This document shows positions 2,110 to 31,438 of a stretch of 33,479 nucleotides of DNA, piece by piece. The stretch spans positions 1 through 33,479 of the IMG/VR virus record IMGVR_UViG_3300035034_000122, one strand, 5' to 3'. The notes beneath the pieces are model-generated. The model made no database searches and was not told the DNA's origin. It saw only the letters and a program-made list of their open reading frames with translations. The translations under genes were made by a program, and so were the position numbers. The stretch is from a virus. The number at the start of each line of letters is the position of its first letter. Position 1 is the first letter of the stretch.

Positions 2110-2540
2110 TGGTCTACCAAATAAGCACTACGACTTACGGCAAACTACTCAAGATTGTTGAGGGGGCTAATACGTACGTACTGTCAGACCACAACAGGGC
2201 ACCCGTGAGTATGTCTCCTGAGCGCATAGAGCAGAGCAGGCGCACCGCTAATGGTACACGACGCAGGTATTTCATTGCCGACAAGCGCACGTTCAACGTG
2301 GACTGGACGGACCTGCCACACAACTCTACCCAGACTGTAGATGCCGGTGTTGGTGCAGAAGACCTTTCAGCACTATACTACGACCTAGATAACGTGGGTA
2401 TAGTTCAGTTAGAAGTAGCCCTGCGCGCGGGCGGTGTTGAAAGTGTTGATGTGCATATTACTAACTTTACTAGTACACTCTCTAAGAGGTTCACCAATGG
2501 ACACTACTACGATGTGTCTATGGAATTTGAGGAGGTATAA
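2109..2540 (+). CDS. Small tail protein (distal-tail or baseplate-type, putative)
   Basis: This 143-aa protein starts with ATG overlapping the tape-measure stop (TAATG), with AAAGGAG at 2093-2099. It has no signal peptide or membrane segment. It looks beta-rich and ends in alternating strands (DVHITNFTSTLSKRF, YYDVSMEFEEV), the style of the small tail-tip adaptor found between the tape measure and the large baseplate gene in siphoviruses. Gene order (tape measure, this, Tal-like protein) supports a distal-tail or minor tail role at the tail tip. I see no catalytic motif, and the assignment rests on position and general look. Confidence 0.55.
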   Translation: MVYQISTTTYGKLLKIVEGANTYVLSDHNRAPVSMSPERIEQSRRTANGTRRRYFIADKRTFNVDWTDLPHNSTQTVDAGVGAEDLSALYYDLDNVGIVQLEVALRAGGVESVDVHITNFTSTLSKRFTNGHYYDVSMEFEEV

Positions 2541-5500
2541 TGTTAGCGACTACAGCACAGTTTGATACGGCTGCCGATGCGAACACTACAGAGGTTGACT
2601 GCAAGGTAGAAATTGAACGTGAATACAATGCTATTGCAGACACTATTACTGTGTCCGCAGACCACGCACCGGCTGACCCTAGATTCCACAAGGAAAATGT
2701 TGTAAAGATTCGTAATCCTCAACGCAATGGTATTGCTTATGGACCAATAAAAGAATTTTTTACTTCTGACAACCCACTGAGAGGGTTTAGACTTATTGAC
2801 GACCCCGACTTTGATAAGGACCGGGGGGCGGCCTACTACATACCAGTCGCCACCGGTGGTACTGAAAAAGCAGACGTTACTGTTGACTACACCGAGAACT
2901 ATAAGATGAACTGTATTGAAGTACGATACGAGAATACTAGAACTTCTTCAACGTACTACAACAATGCCATTGAGATTAGAACCACCCCCAACGGCGGAGG
3001 TGAGTCAGTCATACACAATGGCACTATGAATACTACTGGAGTCACTAGAATCTACTGGAATGGTTCTAGTTGGTCTACGTCTAGGGCAGGTATTGACTCT
3101 GACGGCGTGGACGTTAGGTCCGTTAGGCTCAGGGTGCTTGCTGGTAGTTGGACCCACCAGCCTAGGATAATGTACTTGGGTGGCATACACCTGCTAGACG
3201 TAAGCGACGACATTATAGACGTTACTGTAAATAAGACTGAGTTTGAACAGTCCGCATACTTGCCAACAGGAGAGCCGTCTGGTAATACTTGTGATATTAC
3301 TTTAGACAACACGGGAAAGCGATATAGTTTTGGCACGGCTGTTGGTGAAAATTATTTCTTAAAAAAACAGAAAATTACAGTGCAGTTTGGAGTTAACACG
3401 AAATATGGTGCGGGTGCCGACGCATTTGAATATGTTCCGGCTGGCACGTTCTACGTTGACTCATATGGTTATAACGAAAAAGATATGACAGCAAACATCA
3501 GCGGTCAAGACTTCAGTAACATTCTACAAGAAACCTTTTGTGGCAACTACCTATGGGTGGATAAGTCACTTAAGTTTATCATCCATGACGTATTGGCTAG
3601 GTCTGGCATAACTCCTAACGGAGTTGTCTTTGATTTTGGTGTGGCTCGTAATGCCAATGAAGCCAATAAAAGAAATTATGTCTGGTCCACTGATGAACAA
3701 ACAGTCTGGGATTTTCTTAGTGATATAGTTAAGTCAGAACTTGGGACTGTGTTCTACGATGAAGAAGAAAACTTAGTAGTAACCGACCGTCTTGATATTG
3801 ACACCAAGTTCAACGCAGGGGCGCAGTACTCTTTTGACGCCAGTATAAACCTTGAATCAATTGACGAACAGTTTGAGGTGGGTGCTAACAACGTTAAGGT
3901 ATCGTATGAAGAACTGAAACTTAACAGTACTCCAGTAAACTTGCAGTTAGTCACGGATAGTAATAATCAGTTTAGTTACGAACCCGGCCCTGAATTGATG
4001 AAAAATTCAGTTTTGTGGCAGCCAGACGGTGAGAAAAGTTATCTAGGTAGCGCAACTCTTATGAGGACTTTAACCCCGAACGATACCTATATATGGGTGA
4101 CTCCGCATACTTCATTGCAGATAACAAGGGACGAAGGGGAAGTCTTAATTGGTGATGAATTTATTCGCTATGGCAGCGTTGATGTTCTAGGTAATAGTGG
4201 AACTAGACTCAAAATAACAAAGAGAGACGCTCGTGGTACGGTGTTTAATGGAGTTATTCCGGTACACAAAGGAGTATATAGTAACTACAACCTAAGAACA
4301 CACGTAAAATTTGACAGAACTCACTTCCCTCAAAACCTAAAGAGGGCGGTACGTAAAATAACTGGAGACGGTTTCAGGCAGTACTTACACACAAAAAATA
4401 CTCAGCACTGGCTGGCTATAGAATGTACTGAATTTGAATCAAGTCAAATTAACTATAATTCAAATTATAGGATTTACGGGGCAAGGTTCAGGTTCAATGA
4501 AATCCCCGCAGGTAACCACCAAGCCCAAGCCGCCGGTATATACATGAATATGATTTCAGAGGCTGGCAGAGGCATTTTCTTTGAGATTAGTAATCCAGAC
4601 ATGGCAGAAATAGTTCGTAACGAGGCTAAGGGAAATGCTCGTGCATATAAAACTAGTAACTGGCTGAACAGAGTTCCGATGCCTCCAGACCCTAAACAGA
4701 ATGCTGATGAATTTGGAAAAACGTTTCTTTTTGCTGAGGCTTCAACGGGTCCAGCAGGTAATGATGGTACGTATATTGACCTAACTGTAATAGAAGAAGA
4801 ACTAGTGGGGCCAGATAAAATCAGTTGGTATGTTAATGGTGAGTTTATGGGGTCTTTCTTCACTGAATACTCGATGGGTGAACTATCGGCTCTGGGGTTC
4901 ACTACTAATGAACAAATAGTAGGTAACACTCCAACTCAAAAAGGAAGGTTCGGCTTTTTCACTAGGGGTGGCACTGATGCCACACTAGATTTCATTTATG
5001 CTAGTAACGATTCAAGGATTGGTCCTGATGAATTACTACAGTCTAGGGGTTTTAGGAAGTATTTTGACTCGCACACAAATTCATGGAACGTAAAGAATGA
5101 CTACCTATACGACAGACCATATTATGTAGAATTTGGTGCGCCGGTCCACGAGGTAGTTGAATTTGAGGTAGACCATGATACATACCCAAATATCTATGCT
5201 AGGATTATGAACACTGACGAAGAATCTGTAAGTGTTTTCAAGGCCAGCCATGACCCCTTTAGTAGTAAAATAATAGTTGGGAATACATCTAGAATTGGTA
5301 TTGATTTGAATAACACTGTATACTATCCCGACGGAAGTGAATTAGACCATAGTTTTATAGTTTATGGAGTTGGGGTGATTCAGTCTGAAGCAGATACAAT
5401 AACAACAACAAATAGTGCTGCTATTCGTCGCTATGGAGTTCAGGAAGTTGAAATGGAAAACCCGTGGGTAAATACCAAATCACAGGCTATCGAATTGGCT

Positions 5501-5758
5501 ACACACATAAGAAAGTACTGGTCAACACCTCAGCAGTTCTTTGACCTTGAGGTTATGCCGAATCCAGCACTACAGGTAAGAGACAGAGTCGCTGTGTCCT
5601 ATGTAGACAAAGGTTTCACCAGCGGCACTTGGTTTGTTAATGGTATAAGTATCAAGTATGATGGCGGCCTGTCGTCTACTGTTAAGTTAAAGCGCTATGA
5701 AACCTATCCGACAGGAGATTTGGATTATAGAGAAAAGGGAGGTATCATCATAACATGA
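2540..5758 (+). CDS. Large minor tail / Tal-like baseplate protein
   Basis: This 1072-aa protein starts at an ATG in a TAATG overlap, with GAGGAGGT just upstream. The last 80 residues (NPALQVRDRVAVSY near 1008, then a strand ending TVKLKRY) match the C-terminal beta domain seen in siphovirus tail-tip proteins of the Tal/gp27-like type. The region near 230-480 is also typical of those proteins (VNKTEFEQSAYLPTGEPSG, then a helical segment with VWDFLSDIVKSELG). A beta-rich insert at about 590-830 could be a concanavalin-like carbohydrate-binding or structural domain; this is inferred from composition only. It is expected at the tail tip, linking tail tube and fibres. It ends in an ATGA overlap with the 101-aa gene, so the two are translationally coupled. 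Confidence 0.75.
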   Translation: MLATTAQFDTAADANTTEVDCKVEIEREYNAIADTITVSADHAPADPRFHKENVVKIRNPQRNGIAYGPIKEFFTSDNPLRGFRLIDDPDFDKDRGAAYYIPVATGGTEKADVTVDYTENYKMNCIEVRYENTRTSSTYYNNAIEIRTTPNGGGESVIHNGTMNTTGVTRIYWNGSSWSTSRAGIDSDGVDVRSVRLRVLAGSWTHQPRIMYLGGIHLLDVSDDIIDVTVNKTEFEQSAYLPTGEPSGNTCDITLDNTGKRYSFGTAVGENYFLKKQKITVQFGVNTKYGAGADAFEYVPAGTFYVDSYGYNEKDMTANISGQDFSNILQETFCGNYLWVDKSLKFIIHDVLARSGITPNGVVFDFGVARNANEANKRNYVWSTDEQTVWDFLSDIVKSELGTVFYDEEENLVVTDRLDIDTKFNAGAQYSFDASINLESIDEQFEVGANNVKVSYEELKLNSTPVNLQLVTDSNNQFSYEPGPELMKNSVLWQPDGEKSYLGSATLMRTLTPNDTYIWVTPHTSLQITRDEGEVLIGDEFIRYGSVDVLGNSGTRLKITKRDARGTVFNGVIPVHKGVYSNYNLRTHVKFDRTHFPQNLKRAVRKITGDGFRQYLHTKNTQHWLAIECTEFESSQINYNSNYRIYGARFRFNEIPAGNHQAQAAGIYMNMISEAGRGIFFEISNPDMAEIVRNEAKGNARAYKTSNWLNRVPMPPDPKQNADEFGKTFLFAEASTGPAGNDGTYIDLTVIEEELVGPDKISWYVNGEFMGSFFTEYSMGELSALGFTTNEQIVGNTPTQKGRFGFFTRGGTDATLDFIYASNDSRIGPDELLQSRGFRKYFDSHTNSWNVKNDYLYDRPYYVEFGAPVHEVVEFEVDHDTYPNIYARIMNTDEESVSVFKASHDPFSSKIIVGNTSRIGIDLNNTVYYPDGSELDHSFIVYGVGVIQSEADTITTTNSAAIRRYGVQEVEMENPWVNTKSQAIELATHIRKYWSTPQQFFDLEVMPNPALQVRDRVAVSYVDKGFTSGTWFVNGISIKYDGGLSSTVKLKRYETYPTGDLDYREKGGIIIT

Positions 5759-6060
5759 CTAAAAAGAGAAAACAATCCTTAACTGACGCACAAATCATTA
5801 AGCGAGGAGGAGACGATAAGTTTGGCGCTGCCGGGGCGCCAAACATGGAAGGTTTTTCTTACAGAACAGACTTAGGTTCGGGTCTAGGAGACGGCGATAT
5901 TAGCGAGCCGGTTCTAACTCTAGAGGCCCCAAGGAATTTAGCGGTGGTCAGTAAGGTGCTTAGTTTTGCCCCAGATGGAAGTCAAATTGTTACTGTCGTT
6001 ATTGAGTTTGATGAAGTTGAGGGTGCTGAGGGATATGAGTCAAGGGTGTCCGTAATATGA
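5755..6060 (+). CDS. Small tail protein carrying the first half of a split FN3 domain
   Basis: This 101-aa protein starts in an ATGA overlap with GGGAGG about 12 bases upstream. The N-terminus is basic and then Gly-rich. From about residue 57 it reads as the beginning of a fibronectin type III domain: APRNLAVVSK (strand A), IVTVVIEFDEVEGAEGY (strands B-C), ESRVSVI (strand C), and then a stop. The rest of the fold (strands E-G) is missing here but appears at the start of the 1155-aa fibre gene, one gene downstream and in the same frame. It is either one half of a split tail-fibre domain or the remnant left when the 273-aa gene was inserted. Function is otherwise unknown; by position it is a virion component. 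Confidence 0.65.
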   Translation: MTKKRKQSLTDAQIIKRGGDDKFGAAGAPNMEGFSYRTDLGSGLGDGDISEPVLTLEAPRNLAVVSKVLSFAPDGSQIVTVVIEFDEVEGAEGYESRVSVI

Positions 6061-6878
6061 TAACTAACAAAGGAAAGGAATTACTGTCTAGGTACCTAGC
6101 AGGGTATTCTGGTGTCTGGGCTGGTGCATTAGAATTTGGTGTGGGGGAGACGACAGTAGATGCTACGAATGAGTCATTAGACTTTCCTTTTGTGCGAGTT
6201 CCTGTTCAATATATTGACTACGACCCCAACACATATGTTATTACAGTACGTGCTGTTATTCCCGCTACAGTCAGTGGTGTGTTCTACGAAGTGGGAGTCT
6301 TTAGCAGTGAAGATTTTCCTAGCGGAGAGCAGGGCCACCAATTAATACTTGACTACAGCGGTGTAGACACCGTGTATAGCGCTGTGAACGCCGCTACGAC
6401 GCTTGACAATGCTCGGGTGGGGTCCACAGCCTATAAATTAACTGCGCCCGCTGCGGGCACTGCAACGCTTCGCGGTTTCATACCGGGTAATGACTTGAGT
6501 TCTTATACTGGAAACGATGTATTTAATACTGCTTACTTCTATACAGCGACAGGCGGTGCTCCGTCCGTTAACATGAGATTTGAGTCTACGCCAACAGACT
6601 ACTTTAGTTATTCTTTCACACCCACAGCAGGCTACAACATTGAAACGGTAGCCCGTGGTACGCTGGGACAGACAGGAACTCCAAACTGGTCGACTGTAAA
6701 CGCAGTTTACGTAGAACTAGATGACTTAGGAGAACTAACGCTTGACGGCCTTATGCTAGAAGACACAATTAATATAGGAACATATGGAATGATAGCGCGA
6801 GAAATCATAACACCGGAACTTGTAAAGGCTGGTAACGTCGAAACTGACGCTATCTTCCAGATTACATTAGGATTCTAA
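6057..6878 (+). CDS. Baseplate/tail-fibre protein with C-terminal carbohydrate-binding-like region
   Basis: This 273-aa protein starts in an ATGA overlap with AAGGGTG about 10 bases upstream. Its opening (ITNKGKELLSRYLAG, then a VGETT segment, FVRVPV, and YEVGVFSSED) is the pattern of a widespread phage tail family that begins ITNxGKE and builds a baseplate- or fibre-attachment domain. Residues about 110-240 alternate short strands with LTAPAAGTATLRGF and LTLDGLMLED, resembling the beta-sandwich of carbohydrate-binding modules; this part is inferred. It sits precisely between the two halves of an FN3 domain encoded by the flanking genes. A role in receptor binding or fibre attachment is likely. 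Confidence 0.65.
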   Translation: MITNKGKELLSRYLAGYSGVWAGALEFGVGETTVDATNESLDFPFVRVPVQYIDYDPNTYVITVRAVIPATVSGVFYEVGVFSSEDFPSGEQGHQLILDYSGVDTVYSAVNAATTLDNARVGSTAYKLTAPAAGTATLRGFIPGNDLSSYTGNDVFNTAYFYTATGGAPSVNMRFESTPTDYFSYSFTPTAGYNIETVARGTLGQTGTPNWSTVNAVYVELDDLGELTLDGLMLEDTINIGTYGMIAREIITPELVKAGNVETDAIFQITLGF

Positions 6879-6879
6879 C

Positions 6880-9800
6880 ATGGCTAGAAAAAGACTTGAA
6901 CTAAAAAACTTAACGGCGGGCAAGCAGTATGCAGTGCAGGTCCGTGCGCTCGGGGGCGACGGTCCGCCGAGCAGTTGGTCCCTGTCATTAAACTTTACTG
7001 CTGATGCGGACACTACTGCTCCCGGCGCACCTACCAACTTAAATGTTGTTGTTTCGGGTGATTCATTTGTTGGTACGTGGACAAGGCCGACGATAAACGC
7101 TGACGGAAGCGACCTTAAAGACTTCAAGGACTTTGAAATAACCGTTAGGAACATGCTAAACAACGACACGGCTGTTTTTTACACACAGGAGCCGCGCTTT
7201 GACTTAAGTTATTCTAGAAACGTGGGTGTTTTTGGCTTGCGTTCCAGCGGAGTTCCACTAGTCGGCGGTTTCGCTACTGGAGAGATTGAATATTCAGTGA
7301 AGGCCAGAGACACCTCTCTTAACGTTTCAAGCGCGGCTGTAGACAGTGCTATAAATGGACCTCCGGGGCCGTTTACACTTACCGATGGTGGTTCAGACGC
7401 CCCCATGACAATAAATATAACTTGGACAGAACCATCTGGTAATGACATCCTCACTTATCGTATTAGACGAGGGGCTGCTACGGGGGTTTATAGTTTTGCT
7501 GACGTAACTGGGGAACTAACATATACTAACTATGACCTACAGAGAGGTCTGTATTACTACTTGGTCGAGGCATATGATAAGTTTGGTAATGTTACTAATA
7601 GTGATGAAATTGAAGTGCTTTCTAAAGGTTTCTGGGAGGCAGACTTTTCTGTTCCTGACGCTCCTACCGTTAGTAACGTAGCAAGTGGATTTACTAGTGG
7701 AGCAGACACTGCAGAAATTACATTCGATGTAACTGGACCCGCAACTGCAACTCTTGATGGGGGGGTGGAGACAGTGGCATACGACTATCATAGTTATTAT
7801 GTAGTTCGTTGGTCAACCGTTGCTACTGGGCCTTTTCAATACCAGACAATAAATGAGTTAGATAACACTATTGCTCATGGTGTTTCAATTCAGGGCTTGT
7901 TGCCGAGTACTACTTACTACTATGAAGTAAAGTCGGTCAGTGAATATGGACAGTCTGGGCTGTGGGCTACTGGCTCCACACTTAGCGCAATAGACGTAAC
8001 GCCACCTGACGCACCAATAGGAGTTAGTGCGTCTGGTTCTCTTCAAAATATCACTGTTTCGTGGACCGCCAATATAGAAACGGACCTTGCTGTATATATT
8101 TTGTACGGAAGCCAAACAGGAGGATTTACTCCCGGCGGCGGTAATAAGATTTATGAAGGTAATGGTAATGGCTATTCGCACACCAATAATGGAACAATGG
8201 GCGATGGAGAAACTTGGTACTACCGAGTTGCCGCCGTAGACAGGTCTGAAAATGTTAGTACTATTTCGGCAGAAGTCAGCGCAACCAGCACCAGCGCGCT
8301 AGGAGACACCGAACCGCCAGACCCTATAACGTGGCCCACAGACCCATTAGTGCCCGTTACATACTATCACGGCTCAAGTGAGCGCTCATACGTTGATGTT
8401 AAGTGGGTGGCTAGTACTAGTACTGATGTTAGTTCTTATGTTGTTAGTTATCAAGAATCTGGTTCTGTGGGCTGGTTAGACTTAGTTACAAGTGGTGATA
8501 ATACTACCTATAGGATAGGCGACCTAATACCGGGTACGATAATTAATGTTAGAGTTAGGGCAGAAGACGCGGCCGGGAATTTTAGTGGCTGGTCTACTAC
8601 TAAAACAGTTGAGGTTATTGGAGTTAACGGGGCAATTGTCCAGCCTGTCGATATTATTAACAATGGTGCTATTCAGTCTGGTAACTTTGACTCATCGGCA
8701 CCTACAGGATTTAGACTAGACACTAACAGTCTGGAAATCTATGGAGATGGTTCCGACGCAACAAGTGTCATCCTTGGGTCCACAGGGCTTAACCTGAACA
8801 CACTTAGCGACCAAATTTGGTTCGGTGCGAGCGCTTTTGCAAATGCTAAGTGGCGAGTAGGAAGTAGCGGAGCCATGCGTTTGGGCAGCGACAACGTTGC
8901 TCCAGAATTCAACTTCTATGCCGATGGAGTAGGTAACATATGGTCAGGTAACGCTGAAAGAACTCTAGCCCCTTGGTTTATTACAAATACCGGTGCTGCT
9001 AAGTTTGATGACATTAGTATAACTGCTGATGCAGCAGGGACAACCGACAAAATTGTTCTAAACGTTGATAATGACTTTTTGATTAGGGGGAATCGAAGTG
9101 CGTCTCCCTATACAGTAGAAATGGCTGGCAGTATGGCAATGACTGGAAGTCTGTTTGTAAATAGCGGTAGTATTACTATCAACGGTGGAGACATGAATGT
9201 TACTAATGGTAACGTTCAGTCTAGTCCTTCGTGGACGCCGGGTTCAGGAACAGGCTTTAGACTACAGGGGTGGAACGGAACTCTCTACGCCACTAACGCA
9301 CGAATTTCAGGTACGTTGGACGTAACGGGTACCTCTAACTTTGGGGCCAATATAACAGTTAGTAACGGTTCTGGAATATCTAGTGCAGTGTCAGGTTGGA
9401 GTATTGCGGGCAGCGGGGCTGCTATATTTTCTAATGTAACCATTACCGGAGGAACACTTAACATCGGTAATGACTTCCAAGTTACGCAAAGCGGTGTCCT
9501 TAAGGCGGTGGGTGCTCAGATTTCTGGTACAATTACTACCGGGGGCCTTATCGGCGGAACAATTACAGGTACTACAATTAGGACATCGTCTGGCAACCAA
9601 AGATTAGAACTTTCACAAAGTCCAAACAGCAGGATGTCGTTCTATAATTCTTCAAATCAAATCCGTGGCTACGTAGGATACGACCCTTCCGCCAACGCTA
9701 ATGGAGGATTCCCTGCCTTAGTAATTGACACAGCGACTACTACTTCAGCAATTGATGTTGTTTTAGACGCACAGGAGTCTGTTATTATACGAGGCAAGGC

Positions 9801-10347
9801 TGGAGTTTACATAAATGCTACTAGCCTGGGTAGTAGTTATCCATTTAATGTTGAGGTAATGAGTGGTGGGGGTGCGTTAAGATATAATGACCCCGGCAAC
9901 CAGTGGGAAATGCTAGTATACGGCAACAAAGAATTAATTTTAGGTTCTCAGGGCTTTCTTGTTCCTAACGTTTATCAAACACTTGAGACAAGTAATGTTT
10001 TTAATGTTGCAACTCTCGCCTCCGGTCGTTTGGTTAGAAACACTTCAACTCGTAGAAGGAAGCAAAACATTGAAGACGTATCTAGTACTGGAATTCTAAA
10101 CGTAAAACCTAAGTATTATAATGCTATGTCAGGAGATATAAGAACCCCAGAAAGCCAAATAGCTAGTAACAGCAAGAGTCTTGGTCTTATAGCCGAAGAC
10201 GTTGTTGATGCCATTCCAGAAGCCGGAATATACGAAGAAGATGGTTTGGTTGGTGACTATGACTTGCGAGCGGTTGTTGCCGCTATGTTAATAGAAATAA
10301 CTGAAAATCGCGCTAGGATAGAAACGCTAGAAGCACGGCTCGCTTGA
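6880..10347 (+). CDS. FN3-repeat tail fibre with C-terminal S74 intramolecular chaperone
   Basis: This 1155-aa protein has AGGA about 8 bases before its ATG. Residues 1-40 are only the second half of an FN3 domain (RKRLELKNL, then AGKQYAVQVRALGGDG and SSWS). Complete FN3-like domains follow, starting near residues 45, 157, 257, 375 and 477. Residues about 590-1040 form a Gly/Ser/Thr/Asn-rich repetitive stalk with many short strands, consistent with a trimeric beta-structured fibre. The last 100 residues are a Peptidase_S74 chaperone: S1056 and K1061 (TSTRRRKQNIED) have the five-residue spacing of the Ser/Lys self-cleavage dyad, followed by LGLIAEDV and a terminal coiled coil (ENRARIETLEARLA). 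In this family the chaperone drives trimerisation and is then released. Likely the main host-recognition fibre. Confidence 0.85.
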   Translation: MARKRLELKNLTAGKQYAVQVRALGGDGPPSSWSLSLNFTADADTTAPGAPTNLNVVVSGDSFVGTWTRPTINADGSDLKDFKDFEITVRNMLNNDTAVFYTQEPRFDLSYSRNVGVFGLRSSGVPLVGGFATGEIEYSVKARDTSLNVSSAAVDSAINGPPGPFTLTDGGSDAPMTINITWTEPSGNDILTYRIRRGAATGVYSFADVTGELTYTNYDLQRGLYYYLVEAYDKFGNVTNSDEIEVLSKGFWEADFSVPDAPTVSNVASGFTSGADTAEITFDVTGPATATLDGGVETVAYDYHSYYVVRWSTVATGPFQYQTINELDNTIAHGVSIQGLLPSTTYYYEVKSVSEYGQSGLWATGSTLSAIDVTPPDAPIGVSASGSLQNITVSWTANIETDLAVYILYGSQTGGFTPGGGNKIYEGNGNGYSHTNNGTMGDGETWYYRVAAVDRSENVSTISAEVSATSTSALGDTEPPDPITWPTDPLVPVTYYHGSSERSYVDVKWVASTSTDVSSYVVSYQESGSVGWLDLVTSGDNTTYRIGDLIPGTIINVRVRAEDAAGNFSGWSTTKTVEVIGVNGAIVQPVDIINNGAIQSGNFDSSAPTGFRLDTNSLEIYGDGSDATSVILGSTGLNLNTLSDQIWFGASAFANAKWRVGSSGAMRLGSDNVAPEFNFYADGVGNIWSGNAERTLAPWFITNTGAAKFDDISITADAAGTTDKIVLNVDNDFLIRGNRSASPYTVEMAGSMAMTGSLFVNSGSITINGGDMNVTNGNVQSSPSWTPGSGTGFRLQGWNGTLYATNARISGTLDVTGTSNFGANITVSNGSGISSAVSGWSIAGSGAAIFSNVTITGGTLNIGNDFQVTQSGVLKAVGAQISGTITTGGLIGGTITGTTIRTSSGNQRLELSQSPNSRMSFYNSSNQIRGYVGYDPSANANGGFPALVIDTATTTSAIDVVLDAQESVIIRGKAGVYINATSLGSSYPFNVEVMSGGGALRYNDPGNQWEMLVYGNKELILGSQGFLVPNVYQTLETSNVFNVATLASGRLVRNTSTRRRKQNIEDVSSTGILNVKPKYYNAMSGDIRTPESQIASNSKSLGLIAEDVVDAIPEAGIYEEDGLVGDYDLRAVVAAMLIEITENRARIETLEARLA

Positions 10348-12716: not shown

Positions 12717-14417
12717 GTGGCTACTTGGTTAGGTAGTGATTTTCACATACCATACCAAGACCGCAGAGCAATGGACGTTTGGTTCCGCACTATTCGTATG
12801 TGGAAGCCTGACGTAATTGATATCGTTGGCGACCTAGACGATATGGCGTGTGTTTCTAGATTCAATGAAGGAACCGCTGATGAAGTTATGGGTGCCCTAG
12901 GTACTTATGCTGGCGAAGTTCGTTCATTCTTTATGGCTATGCGCGCTATCGTACCGGATGCTGAAATTGTATTTCACGGTGGAAACCACGAATGTTTGAG
13001 TCATGGACATAGGGTTGTCACCAGCGAAGGTTTCAAGCCTGTAGAAGAACTGTCGGTGGGTCAGCAGGTGCTGTCTACTGATGATGAAGGTAATACTGTG
13101 TGGGTTCCGGTCCAACAGATAAACAAGTATGACGGGTTGCATTGTGTCAACAGGCTGGCTGGTGCTGACGTTGCAGGTGAGTTCACTGATAATCACAGGA
13201 TGTGGATAAAGCCTAATTACGACGCTGAATATCGGTTTGAAGAAATGGAACAAACCGCACAGCGCGCAACGCGGGTGTTTCAAGTGGCCGGTCATAACCC
13301 TCGTGCCGACCACCCAGTGCTGGACGACGAAATCAAATTGCTGGCGTGGTGCCTTACTGATTCCTACTACGCCGAAGAGCGGGGCCACTGGACGTTTTAT
13401 CAGTCTGAACCCAAGCACACCCGAATTGAAAAGATATTGTCCAACCTAGGAATAGACTATACTGCTAGGCGCAGGACTAGAAACATAACTGAAATTGATG
13501 GTACTAAACTCAAGTCAAAGCCCAAGCCGCAGTGGGAATACAAGGTAAAGGCTGGCATTGACCTGCAAGACAAGTCTCGCATTCCCGACGAAGTGTTTGA
13601 GTTTTCTACCAGACAGTTCTTGCTGCTGCTAGATGAATGGCAGTATACCGACGGGACTGCGGCAACAGGTGGTGTTAAGTCTAGAGTTATATACTGTTCT
13701 GACAAAGCAAAACGCCATCAACTTATGACATTGTGCTATATGAATGGTTGTTCTGCGTCTGAAACAGAATATAGGCCCGGACACTGGCGCATAAACATTG
13801 TTACAGACAGGACCGACTCCAAATTTGACTTGTCTTCTCGTCCAGTCCAGCAAGACATAGTGGACGGCGTATGGTGTATAACAGTGCCAACCGGCAGGTT
13901 CTTTACTGAATTTAACGGCAAGGTACATGTTACTGGCAACAGTAGAGTTTGGAAGTACATTTCTAGCAAGGCACCAGCCCTAACTGGACTCATAACACCC
14001 GAATCATTGTGGGGTCTTGACACTATGGGTGTGCAGTACCACCGATACACCCGCCCACCAGTACATCGCTATGGAGACATATTTGTCCACCACGGCCTTT
14101 ATGCCGTTAGTAAGAATCCTGACAGTGTTCGAAAAGTAATGGACAACTTCCATATCAGTGCGATTGTGGGACATTCACACAGACAGGGTGCCACAGCCCA
14201 GTCCTACCCGCTAGCACAACAGCAAGACCTGCGGGGTTATGAATTAGGCCATATGGCTGACATTGATAGCGAGGGCATGGAATATGACTGGCAACACGAC
14301 TGGCAGCAAGGTTTTGCGACCGCGCGAATTGACAGCACGGGGCACCCTCATGTAAACTTGGTATCAATCAACCGCGACTATCGCGCGTACGTAGAAGGGA
14401 ATTTGGTGGAAGGATGA
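12717..14417 (+). CDS. Calcineurin-like metallophosphoesterase interrupted by an intein
   Basis: The precursor is 566 aa; removing the intein (residues 93-408) leaves 250 aa. The GTG start at 12717 is fixed by an in-frame TAG at 12705 and by the motif that must follow. Metal-binding motifs run in order: SDFHIPYQD (DxH, residues 8-16), VGDLDDM (GDxxD), HGGNHE just before the intein, then after it HHGLY and VGHSHRQG. These are the five motifs of the Mre11/calcineurin phosphoesterase superfamily, which hydrolyses phosphodiester or phosphomonoester bonds with two metal ions. In phages such enzymes are usually unassigned; a nuclease or nucleotide phosphatase role is possible. The intein splits the GNHE motif from its following Ser-Arg, so activity requires splicing. 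No good ribosome binding site is seen. Confidence 0.85.
   Translation: MATWLGSDFHIPYQDRRAMDVWFRTIRMWKPDVIDIVGDLDDMACVSRFNEGTADEVMGALGTYAGEVRSFFMAMRAIVPDAEIVFHGGNHECLSHGHRVVTSEGFKPVEELSVGQQVLSTDDEGNTVWVPVQQINKYDGLHCVNRLAGADVAGEFTDNHRMWIKPNYDAEYRFEEMEQTAQRATRVFQVAGHNPRADHPVLDDEIKLLAWCLTDSYYAEERGHWTFYQSEPKHTRIEKILSNLGIDYTARRRTRNITEIDGTKLKSKPKPQWEYKVKAGIDLQDKSRIPDEVFEFSTRQFLLLLDEWQYTDGTAATGGVKSRVIYCSDKAKRHQLMTLCYMNGCSASETEYRPGHWRINIVTDRTDSKFDLSSRPVQQDIVDGVWCITVPTGRFFTEFNGKVHVTGNSRVWKYISSKAPALTGLITPESLWGLDTMGVQYHRYTRPPVHRYGDIFVHHGLYAVSKNPDSVRKVMDNFHISAIVGHSHRQGATAQSYPLAQQQDLRGYELGHMADIDSEGMEYDWQHDWQQGFATARIDSTGHPHVNLVSINRDYRAYVEGNLVEG
12993..13940 (+). mobile_element. Intein in the metallophosphoesterase (with degenerate DOD endonuclease)
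   Basis: This 316-residue intein runs from C93 (CLSHGHRVVTSEGFKPVEEL, block A) to N408 (NGKVHVTGN, block G), with Ser409 as the +1 nucleophile. Block B is GEFTDNHRMW; block F is VWCITVPTGRFFTEF. The penultimate residue is Gly rather than His, a form known from other inteins ending TGN. A central LAGLIDADG-type endonuclease is suggested by LLAWCLTDSYY and LLLLDEWQYTDGTA. The first motif has Asp-Ser in place of Asp-Gly, so homing activity may be reduced or lost. Splicing residues look intact. Confidence 0.85.
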
Positions 14418-28111: not shown

Positions 28112-28632
28112 CAATAACAAGGATTGATGGAGACATTGACACTATCATTGAGGTAGGTAAGGCTTTTGCCAAAGGTAGAAGCCCTAAGGCCGTTGTTGCA
28201 GAACTAGGCTTGTCATCAGTCCAAGAAGCAAAGAAAATGTACGAGCAGTACAAGCAGTTGGCTATTCAGTCAGCAAAAGGCGGTGACCTAGGAGACAGAC
28301 TTGCTCTGGCCCTAGAAGAATCCTTGCAGCACTTTGAGATACTGCTAGAAGAAGCGTGGGAAAACAAGGAAGACGCTACCGCTAACCTTGAGTTCAGTAC
28401 AGTCAATACCAGTCTCCGTCTAATTAAGGACATAACTGAGTCTAGGTTCAAGATGCTACAGTCAATGGTCGACGGCCAAGACATAGAAATGCTTGAGGAA
28501 CTTGAGTACATGGAAGGCCGTCAAGAAAAACTACTTAGTATCCTGAAAGAACTAAAGGAACAGTTCCCCGACGCAGCCAAGTTCATAGGAAAGAAGTTGC
28601 AAGAAGTAGAAGGTGTTGAAATTGTTGGATGA
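28087..28632 (+). CDS. Probable terminase small subunit
   Basis: This 181-aa protein has AGAGGAG upstream of its ATG. Residues 20-60 (VGKAFAKGRSPKAVVAELGL, then SSVQEAKKMYEQY) look like the N-terminal helix-turn-helix of small terminases that recognises packaging sites. Residues 75-160 are long helices (LALALEESLQHFEILLEEAW, LRLIKDITESRFKMLQ) as in the central oligomerisation domain. It overlaps the large terminase by about 20 bases. The identification depends on position and this architecture. Confidence 0.65.
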   Translation: MATNKTAITITRIDGDIDTIIEVGKAFAKGRSPKAVVAELGLSSVQEAKKMYEQYKQLAIQSAKGGDLGDRLALALEESLQHFEILLEEAWENKEDATANLEFSTVNTSLRLIKDITESRFKMLQSMVDGQDIEMLEELEYMEGRQEKLLSILKELKEQFPDAAKFIGKKLQEVEGVEIVG

Positions 28633-31438
28633 ATTCTACGAAGCCCTTAAGGACGACACGTTTGATGAAGAGCCTGTCGACCTTAAGACCTTTGTGGAAG
28701 ACTCGCACTACATGGGGCTGCCACCAATGTCTGAAAAACAAATGCACCTGCTAGAAGCCATGACCCAGATTTATAAGCCAGAAACGATTGACGAACTTTA
28801 CGCGGACGACCCAAAGCGGGCGTACTACCTTAAGTCATTGAAGATTAAAGAACTAATAGCAATGATTGGTAAGGGCTGTGTAACAGGTGACTCTAAGGTC
28901 TTGACGCATGAAGGCTGGCGTCGAGCAGCAGATGTTAAGCGTACTAAACTGCATACAGGTGATGGCTTTGAAGAGTCTTCTGGTGCGCTGCTGTCCGGCG
29001 TAGAAGACTGTGTGAATATAAAGACGTATCACGGATACAGTTTATGCTCGCATAAGCACCATAAGATTAAAACCAAGCACGGGTGGTTGTCTGTTGACAA
29101 ACTGAAGCCGGGTCATCAAGTTGCTATCAACGCAGTCCAATTAGACACGCCGGGACTAGACATGTCTGACGATGAAGCGTGGTGGCTAGGGGCTTTGTTC
29201 GGTGATGGCTCCTTCCCTAGTAGTAAGCCCCGGTCAAGAGCGCCTAGGTTTACTAATGTCACCCCGGAAGTAAGTGAAAAATGGATTGAGATTTCTGAAG
29301 GCATAGACAATATAGAAATCAAGAACGAGGTTTCTGGATATGGTGCTAGCAGGTATCTTGCAACAGGCAGCGCGGGCAGGGGGCGCAACTATTGGATTGA
29401 TTTTTGTAGGCGCTGGGGTCTGGAAGGTTCTAAGTCTTGGAATGATGAATTGCTAAACATGTCAGTTAAACAGACTGCTGAGTTCGCCAACGGCCTTATC
29501 GCCACGGACGGAAGTATAAATAAGTACGGCGGTGTAGACATAGGTCTTTCCAATGAAGAAGTCATGCGAGGTTTCCAGCAGTTATTACTGAACATAGGTG
29601 TTGTTTCTAGGCTCACTGTTAGGGGGCTTGAGAACCCGCTCCATTCAGACAATTGGAGAATGTATATTCCTGCTAGTCAAGCCGCAAAGATATGGAAGAT
29701 AAGTGGCAAGTGTGTGGGCAAAGAAGAGCGCTGTACTGACAAGGTTTCGTCCGTTCCTCTAATCTACAGCGAGGTTACTAGTATAGAGGATGCAGGACAG
29801 CAGGAAATCTATGACTTCATAGTAAGCCCCAGTGAGCAGTATCTTGCCAATGGCTTCATCAATCATAACGGTGGTAAAAACCACACCACTATCACGGCGG
29901 TATGTAGAGTTGTATACCTACTGCTATGCTTAAAGTCTCCGTCGGCATACTACGGTAAGCCAAAGAATGACCCTATTCACATCCTTAACGTAGCGGTTAA
30001 CGCCACGCAGGCAAAGAACACATTCTTCAAACCCCTTCGACAACGTATTGATGCTAGTCCTTGGTTCCAAGGCAAGTATGACGCCGGACGCAGTGGTGAA
30101 ATCAAGTTCGACAAGCACGTTACAGCATATTCTGGACACTCCCAGCGTGAAGCGTGGGAAGGATACAACCTAATCTTCGTCGTGCTGGACGAAATCGCGG
30201 CGTTCAAAACCAGCAGTGAATCAACTGGTATGTCTAGCCGTGCTGACACGGCTCCAGAAATCTATAAGATGTACAAGGCAAGTATCACCAGTCGTTTCCC
30301 TAACGTGGGCAAACTATGTCTGCTGTCATTCCCCCGTTTCGCAGGAGACTATATCACAGAACGATTCAATGAGGCGTCACTAGAAACAGAAATATATAAC
30401 TACCAAAAAGATTTCCTAATCAACCCTGACCTTGGTGACATACCGGGTAACACAATGGAAGTACAGTGGTTCGAAGAACAGGTAATAACCTACAGAGAGC
30501 CTTATGTACTAGGAGTTCGTTACCCGTCGTGGGAGTTCAACCCTCAAATGAACATGGAAGACTACGTAGGAGAATTCCACAGGAACATGAAGGATGCTCT
30601 TTCAAGATTTGCGTGCAACCCCCCGGAAGCAATTGACGCATTTTTCACTGACAAGGAAAAGGTAGAAGCAGCGTTTAAAGAAGCACGACACCCGTTCACT
30701 GACAACTGGCAGTTCCTGCCTAGGTTTGTCGGTGACAGTTCCCAACGCTACTACATGCATGTAGACTTAGCACAGAAGTCAGACCGAGCGGCGGTGTCCA
30801 TAGCCCATGTAGACAGGTGGGTTAGAATAGGTAGTGGAGCCTATGAGTCAGTTGAACCTATGATAACTATTGATGCTGTCCGCTGGTGGACGCCGACGGC
30901 AGGCAAGAACGTAGACTTTACTGACATTAAGGACTACATCATGGCGATTAAGCGCCGCGGATTTAACTTAAAGAAAGTCACCTTCGACCGCTGGGCTGGC
31001 AGTATCGGCTTGCAGCATGAACTGGCTAGGGAAGGAATTGAAGTAGAAACTCTGTCTGTGGGTAGGGCGGAATACAATGATTTCCAGTTGGCTATCTATG
31101 ACGAAAGACTCTACGGTTACCAACTACCACTACTGGTAGACGAAATTCTCGGACTTAAAGTTGACCATAAAGGCAAGGTAGACCACTCGTCTACTGGGTC
31201 TAATGACCTTGCTGACGCAGTAGCAGGGTCCGCACACTTGTGCATGAAGTATGAAGAGCGACCCTATGCAGAAGAAATTGAGGTCCACGTATTTGGCGGT
31301 GACGATGACGAACCAGAAGAAACACTTGTCAGCGCCCTGCTGCCTAAGAAACAGGCGGAAGAACGCGCTAGGATTCGTCAAGTACCTATGATACCACCAG
31401 AAGTAGAACTTTACCTGAAAGACGAATACGTCCTGTAA
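28613..31438 (+). CDS. terL: Terminase large subunit interrupted by an intein in Walker A
   Basis: The precursor is 941 aa; removing residues 89-419 leaves 610 aa, a normal TerL length. The start is GTG 28613, or TTG 28622 or 28625 downstream. The P-loop is split: IGKG before the intein, GGKNHTT after. Walker B is FVVLDEIAAF (D526, E527). The C-terminal RNase H-like nuclease has HVDLAQ (D718) and SNDLADAVAG (D865, D868). The protein pumps DNA into the prohead and cuts concatemers. The intein must leave for ATPase activity, yet its +1 residue is Gly rather than Cys, Ser or Thr. A GC-rich hairpin follows the stop. Confidence 0.92.
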   Translation: MLKLLDEFYEALKDDTFDEEPVDLKTFVEDSHYMGLPPMSEKQMHLLEAMTQIYKPETIDELYADDPKRAYYLKSLKIKELIAMIGKGCVTGDSKVLTHEGWRRAADVKRTKLHTGDGFEESSGALLSGVEDCVNIKTYHGYSLCSHKHHKIKTKHGWLSVDKLKPGHQVAINAVQLDTPGLDMSDDEAWWLGALFGDGSFPSSKPRSRAPRFTNVTPEVSEKWIEISEGIDNIEIKNEVSGYGASRYLATGSAGRGRNYWIDFCRRWGLEGSKSWNDELLNMSVKQTAEFANGLIATDGSINKYGGVDIGLSNEEVMRGFQQLLLNIGVVSRLTVRGLENPLHSDNWRMYIPASQAAKIWKISGKCVGKEERCTDKVSSVPLIYSEVTSIEDAGQQEIYDFIVSPSEQYLANGFINHNGGKNHTTITAVCRVVYLLLCLKSPSAYYGKPKNDPIHILNVAVNATQAKNTFFKPLRQRIDASPWFQGKYDAGRSGEIKFDKHVTAYSGHSQREAWEGYNLIFVVLDEIAAFKTSSESTGMSSRADTAPEIYKMYKASITSRFPNVGKLCLLSFPRFAGDYITERFNEASLETEIYNYQKDFLINPDLGDIPGNTMEVQWFEEQVITYREPYVLGVRYPSWEFNPQMNMEDYVGEFHRNMKDALSRFACNPPEAIDAFFTDKEKVEAAFKEARHPFTDNWQFLPRFVGDSSQRYYMHVDLAQKSDRAAVSIAHVDRWVRIGSGAYESVEPMITIDAVRWWTPTAGKNVDFTDIKDYIMAIKRRGFNLKKVTFDRWAGSIGLQHELAREGIEVETLSVGRAEYNDFQLAIYDERLYGYQLPLLVDEILGLKVDHKGKVDHSSTGSNDLADAVAGSAHLCMKYEERPYAEEIEVHVFGGDDDEPEETLVSALLPKKQAEERARIRQVPMIPPEVELYLKDEYVL
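28877..29869 (+). mobile_element. Intein in terminase large subunit (intact DOD endonuclease, +1 glycine)
   Basis: This 331-residue intein runs from C89 (CVTGDSKVLTHEGWRRAADV, block A) to N419 (YLANGFINHN, blocks F/G). Block B is LCSHKHHKIKT. The LAGLIDADG endonuclease motifs are well kept: WWLGALFGDGSF and FANGLIATDGSI. The terminal His-Asn pair is present. The residue after Asn419 is Gly420 (codons AAC GGT GGT AAA), lacking the usual +1 nucleophile. The endonuclease therefore looks active while standard splicing chemistry looks compromised. Confidence 0.88.

Follow-up and report, generated by a model that had tools for sequence, protein, structure and literature searches.

The stretch of viral DNA analysed here, hereafter the window (33,479 nucleotides; positions 1 to 33,479 of IMG/VR record IMGVR_UViG_3300035034_000122), carries on its plus strand a run of tail genes that, according to the ORF list, occupies 2109-2540, 2540-5758, 5755-6060, 6057-6878 and 6880-10347. 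The genes and domain halves that concern us are the following:

2540..5758, plus strand: upstream tail-tip protein, 1072 aa (phrog_10359 minor tail protein, E 2.1e-58)
5755..6060, plus strand: small gene, putative adaptor, 101 aa (ORF; phrog_11696, E 2.1e-6 over residues 54-98)
5923..6057, plus strand: predicted N-terminal half of a split FN3, strands A, B and C; small-protein residues 57-101
6057..6878, plus strand: middle tail gene, 273 aa (phrog_9983 tail protein, E 2.5e-34)
6880..10347, plus strand: tail fibre / minor tail protein, 1155 aa (phrog_11445, E 5.4e-41)
6880..7011, plus strand: C-terminal half of the split FN3, strands E, F and G; fibre residues 1-44

The ORFs and coordinates of the 101-, 273- and 1155-aa genes agree with the initial annotation, and its statement that the 273-aa gene fills the space between the two halves holds in the window and in every relative inspected. 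The start of the middle gene overlaps the stop of the small gene (ATGA), and the fibre gene begins one base past the middle-gene stop. The small gene and the fibre, both in frame 1, are separate ORFs with their own starts, while the middle gene is in frame 3; SD-like sequences are found at each gene in the window, with GGGAGG lying 12 nt 5' of the small gene. In several loci (L030, L031, L037 and L070), a TATAATT-like motif is located a few bases 5' of the small-gene start and is possibly a promoter inside the tail operon. The three families phrog_11696, phrog_9983 and phrog_11445, the first of which is listed as function unknown in PHROGs, are all found in the window in the Stanwilliamsviridae-type order. 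This gene order matches that of Tomas, Jay2Jay and others, and the position of the upstream tail-tip gene is likewise the same in relatives. Elsewhere in the window, a Metallophosphoesterase-like ORF at 12717-14417 contains an intein-like insert (NHECLSHGHRVVTSEGFKP ... VHVTGNS), and a Terminase large subunit-like ORF at 28613-31438 contains a second one (GKGCVTGDSKVLTHEGWRRA ... NGFINHNGGKNHTT).

The fibre consists of an FN3 array, then the fibre proper, then a C-terminal Peptidase_S74-like chaperone (Pfam: fn3, with Peptidase_S74 weak). Its best intact fn3 lies at residues 501-572, in keeping with the earlier reading of an intact FN3 at about residues 500-580. The match to Peptidase_S74 (endosialidase chaperone) covers residues 1056-1116, window about 10045-10227, at E 1.6e-3, which is below the curated cut-off. 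The fibre N-terminus is MARKRLELKNLTAGKQYAVQVRALGGDGPPSSWS, and its first ~44 residues read as strands E-F-G. On its own, this half scores 20.3 bits against Pfam fn3, and comparison with 20 intact FN3s of these fibres by hhalign gives a probability of 91 (P 1e-6). Its invariant residues are Gly14, Gln20, Arg22, Ser31, Trp33 and Ser34. By sequence, the fibre half is clearly FN3. Furthermore, the phrog_11445 match to the fibre begins at model position 2; hence, the family itself begins at this fibre start.

The C-terminus of the 101-aa protein is APRNLAVVSKVLSFAPDGSQIVTVVIEFDEVEGAEGYESRVSVI, and its last ~45 residues (APRNLAVV...GYESRVSVI) read as strands A-B-C, with P59, G75 and R97 conserved. 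The small half alone has no match to Pfam fn3; against intact FN3s it is placed in the correct register by hhalign, with a probability of 0.8 (P 0.07). The small half of locus L070 reaches 8.2 bits by itself against the FN3 model. In an HMM test with 100 shuffles, the real joined score was reached by none for L070, by 2 for Circinus and by 3 for L047; in the other relatives, the small half adds little to the joined score over the shuffled controls. By sequence, the A-C half is therefore only marginally FN3, and its identity depends on the structural model together with the conservation of the arrangement. Ahead of the half-domain, the small proteins of Stanwilliamsviridae have a conserved FFLPPxVVD-like motif in an N-terminal arm and then a linker, which is acidic in most relatives.

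When the window halves are joined, they match Pfam fn3 (PF00041) in one stretch that runs over the joint (17-80 of 84; E 9.4e-5), with a score of 23.0 bits that falls just under the Pfam cut-off of 25 bits and comes mostly from the fibre half. The joined halves of 11 of 12 relatives match fn3 at E<=1, and a profile of the joined halves aligns through the joint with solved FN3s, e.g. that of the Tie2 receptor (E 7.7e-8). The divergence of the EFG half correlates more closely with that of the small-protein ABC half (r 0.87) than with that of the next domain in its own chain (r 0.74), although such correlated divergence also mirrors common ancestry. It had been noted that one FN3 is spread over two genes; we consider the observation of two halves encoded by two genes confirmed, with strands E-G well supported and strands A-C marginal.

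A structural model was obtained with AF2 from positions 5755-7359, translated with the stops replaced by glycine, which is possible because both halves are in one frame in the window. The input thus began with the small protein, continued through about 270 residues of meaningless linker and ended with fibre residues 1-160; it was run with an alignment of the relatives' halves, mostly unpaired. In blocks of ten, small-protein residues 51-100 have pLDDT values of 90, 96, 89, 96 and 96; the fibre half has 94-98, and the linker is below 50. The strands predicted are 63-71, 77-86 and 93-101 (A, B and C) in the small half, and 378-387, 391-399 and 412-415 in read-through numbering (E, F and G) in the fibre half. 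A canonical FN3 has seven strands, namely A, B, C, C', E, F and G; here six are predicted, with C' absent at the break, and our claim is accordingly one of an FN3-like split sandwich rather than of a canonical FN3. A control run used only the small protein and its relatives; there, the same blocks have pLDDT values of 60, 80, 88, 77 and 69, pTM is 0.32, and strand C is not formed. In the FN3 fold, the partner of strand C is F and that of strand E is B. The appearance of strand C in the joint model only is thus as expected from pairing of the halves. It should also be noted that the artificial linker joins the chains and forces their local concentration; the contact between the halves is inferred from AF2 confidence and strand assignment. 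Foldseek matches of the joint model in PDB and BFVD are FN3 tandems, which are no proof of pairing, as the second FN3 of the fibre alone would match likewise.

Twelve annotated phages, nine of Streptomyces and three of Rhodococcus, were inspected (Tomas, Circinus, LilMartin, Jay2Jay, Annadreamy, Coruscant, Moab, Mandalore, Byblos, Francesca, NiceHouse and Trina), and the triad with the same break point is present in all twelve. Their small proteins measure 111-139 aa, their middle proteins 264-298 aa and their fibres about 1100 to 2000 aa. The small proteins stop at strand C, ending in EYDIRVTKA, EYDIRVTKN, YEIRITQ or IQVDVRMTKA directly before the stop codon, and the fibres begin at strand E (MTRILVKDLEPGRTHYIQARV, MAEIQLQGLQPGQQCFVQVRT) with the consensus M-x-R-I-L-L-R-D-L-x-P-G-x-x-Y-x-I-Q-x-R. 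Pairwise identity in these parts falls to 17-29%. In these phages' records, as examined, the genes are named hypothetical protein, (minor) tail protein or major tail protein, with no mention of a split FN3. Relatives with the same gene order and flanks lacking FN3 similarity were looked for, and none was found.

The arrangement extends to larger collections. With the middle protein, tblastn retrieves 125 Streptomyces phage records. The fibre N-terminus of a Rhodococcus phage retrieves 135 records, and in 132 the alignment spans 80% or more of the query; 127 records are from Streptomyces and 5 from Rhodococcus, and among the matches listed for these two groups, all alignments begin at query residue 1 or 3. 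The matches in Escherichia phage TR2 and Rhizobium phage RHph_Y1_11 were taken to be of the ordinary FN3 type and left out. In IMG/VR, a profile scan shows the same arrangement in 30 of 30 loci, and additional scans with small-protein, fibre and middle-protein profiles contribute four more contigs, bringing the number that hold all three genes to 34 of 34. Some of these contigs are GenBank isolates (e.g. Jay2Jay and Trina), so that the counts of 12 phages and 34 contigs overlap. One locus, L098, with a tail-tip protein of another kind, was likewise left out as an ordinary FN3-type match. The window fibre N-terminus alone finds no relative among the viral contigs, the relatives having been reached through the middle gene and multi-phage alignments, and no relative is found in the GTDB genomes.

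How the split arose is a separate matter. The initial annotation read the locus as the insertion of a complete gene into what had been a longer fibre gene, pointing to the common frame of the halves. That frame is indeed common in the window and in Trina; across relatives, however, the distance from the small-gene stop to the fibre start is 0, 1 or 2 modulo 3, so the common frame in the window is a coincidence and carries no weight. No uninterrupted gene with a full FN3 is found in related phages, the search having covered 50,697 phage records and the IMG/VR and GTDB scans, and a recent insertion is rejected on this ground. Since the arrangement is common to Stanwilliamsviridae, the Rhodococcus phages and this virus, the split is most simply dated before the divergence of all lineages inspected. 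As its origin, insertion, fission and gene rearrangement fit these findings alike. Thus, of the earlier interpretation, the likely assembly of FN3 halves from two genes stands, while a recognisable insertion origin does not.

We propose that the natural split FN3 is probably a coupling in the tail tip, in which the small protein, as an adaptor, would complete the first FN3 of the fibre. The adaptor would consist of an N-terminal arm, a flexible linker and a C-terminal half-domain, its last ~45 residues supplying strands A-B-C that are unable to finish folding alone. The fibre chain would open with strands E-F-G of the same domain. Once the chains meet, the half-sandwiches would fold into one FN3 without C', much like a snap-fastener, fixing one adaptor to one fibre chain; the 1:1 stoichiometry and virion binding are part of the model. 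The arm, with its FFLPPxVVD-like motif and acidic linker, appears suited to docking on a tail-tip protein, and the 1072-aa product of the upstream gene is the candidate partner. The middle gene may have some role in assembly order. Refolding of an engineered FN3 that was split in the corresponding loop (PMC11666773) makes the chemistry of a natural split plausible. That the halves likely assemble, as had been suggested, is further in line with the arrangement kept in all relatives inspected and with the joint AF2 model when set against the small-protein control.

The halves could instead be relics of an FN3 broken by insertion or fission, whose fragments now act separately, with, for example, the EFG strands pairing with other fibre chains and the small-protein tail binding elsewhere. 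The drift of the A-C half from FN3 in sequence would fit this reading. We nevertheless regard it as unlikely, given that the exact break point is retained in every relative with neither half lost, that conservation extends to the hydrophobic strand patterns as well as to P59, G75, R97 and L-x-P-G...Q-x-R...S-x-W-S, and that AF2 forms strand C only with the fibre half present. It could also be argued that the small-protein tail is not FN3, its resemblance being due to chance and AF2 fitting any compatible beta strands into the gap. The correct hhalign register, the L070 half (8.2 bits alone, with 0 of 100 shuffles reaching its joined score), the conserved adjacency and the correlated divergence render this quite improbable, even though by sequence the A-C half is of marginal significance and AF2 may complete half-domains opportunistically.

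The remaining alternative is that the two genes yield one polypeptide, the middle gene being passed over by RNA splicing, by ribosome bypassing or by a frameshift; it draws on the frame shared by the halves in the window and Trina. For intron splicing there is also a precedent among other actinophages, in the tail genes of Cluster J mycobacteriophages (PMC3706429). We judge such a route to be highly improbable, because the frame relation varies among relatives (0, 1 or 2 modulo 3) and an Rfam search of the region matches no intron family. The middle gene is, moreover, a conserved structural gene, and each window gene has its own start and SD-like sequence. The Rfam matches that the search did give, SCARNA7 among them, do not reach gathering scores and were put down to chance.

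A coupling by half-domains may extend beyond actinophages. The loci of a distant freshwater virus group (L002-L029) have a homologous middle gene (phrog_9983, E 1.6e-15). In the complete loci, this gene is flanked upstream by a 172-258 aa protein with a strand-like C-terminal end, and downstream by one of 148-259 aa that carries an EFG-like stretch close to its N-terminus, this short gene standing in place of the long fibre. Against the actinophage EFG profile, the downstream stretch gives a weak match (P 2.3e-4), and the upstream stretch has no significant match to the actinophage profile. The similar split signature of these loci is suggestive only; with it, the half-domain principle may predate the actinophages and reach beyond them. 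Whether separately encoded half-domains are a general principle of phage-tail attachment, with adaptor and fibre held by FN3 fold complementation, is a tentative proposal that we rate as somewhat more doubtful than probable.

In pilin donor-strand complementation, a neighbouring subunit completes an incomplete beta-sandwich to build the assembly. Pilins donate one strand, whereas each phage chain would give three, i.e. a half-domain. A natural FN3 formed by two polypeptides is FnIII-2 of the insulin receptor. This domain, of alpha and beta chains with an insert domain, differs in deriving from one gene, being cut by a protease and held by disulfides, while the phage halves are separately encoded; the receptor's domain layout is given in PMC6200814. 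A close likeness is the engineered split monobody from the tenth FN3 of fibronectin, also one FN3 in two chains, cut after strand C and refolding together. Split at Asn45/Ser46 in the CD loop, its two peptides refold and bind the target, with a Tm of about 45 versus 78 C for the intact domain (PMC11666773; for FN3 fragment complementation, see also Dutta et al. 2005, as cited there). That cut is man-made and within one sequence, in contrast to the phage split, which involves two conserved viral genes, lacks C' and has another gene in between. The phrog_11696, phrog_9983 and phrog_11445 genes of Stanwilliamsviridae and Trinavirus share the same order and break point, and the window is a distant member of this group. 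A natural two-gene FN3 is not reported in the literature searched, which takes in few subscription papers; a paper on phage 0305phi8-36 mentions split genes and no split FN3.

Taken together, our results provide a testable function for phrog_11696, a family of unknown function, and the split FN3 explains why these fibres begin mid-domain. They also caution that a gene starting mid-domain need not be misannotated. A split FN3 pair already optimised by nature could find use as a coupling tool, since splitting the engineered monobody lowers its stability relative to the intact domain. The split-domain arrangement spans a whole lineage of phages of soil bacteria, and natural two-gene FN3 complementation, if true, would be a new way to build a virion joint.
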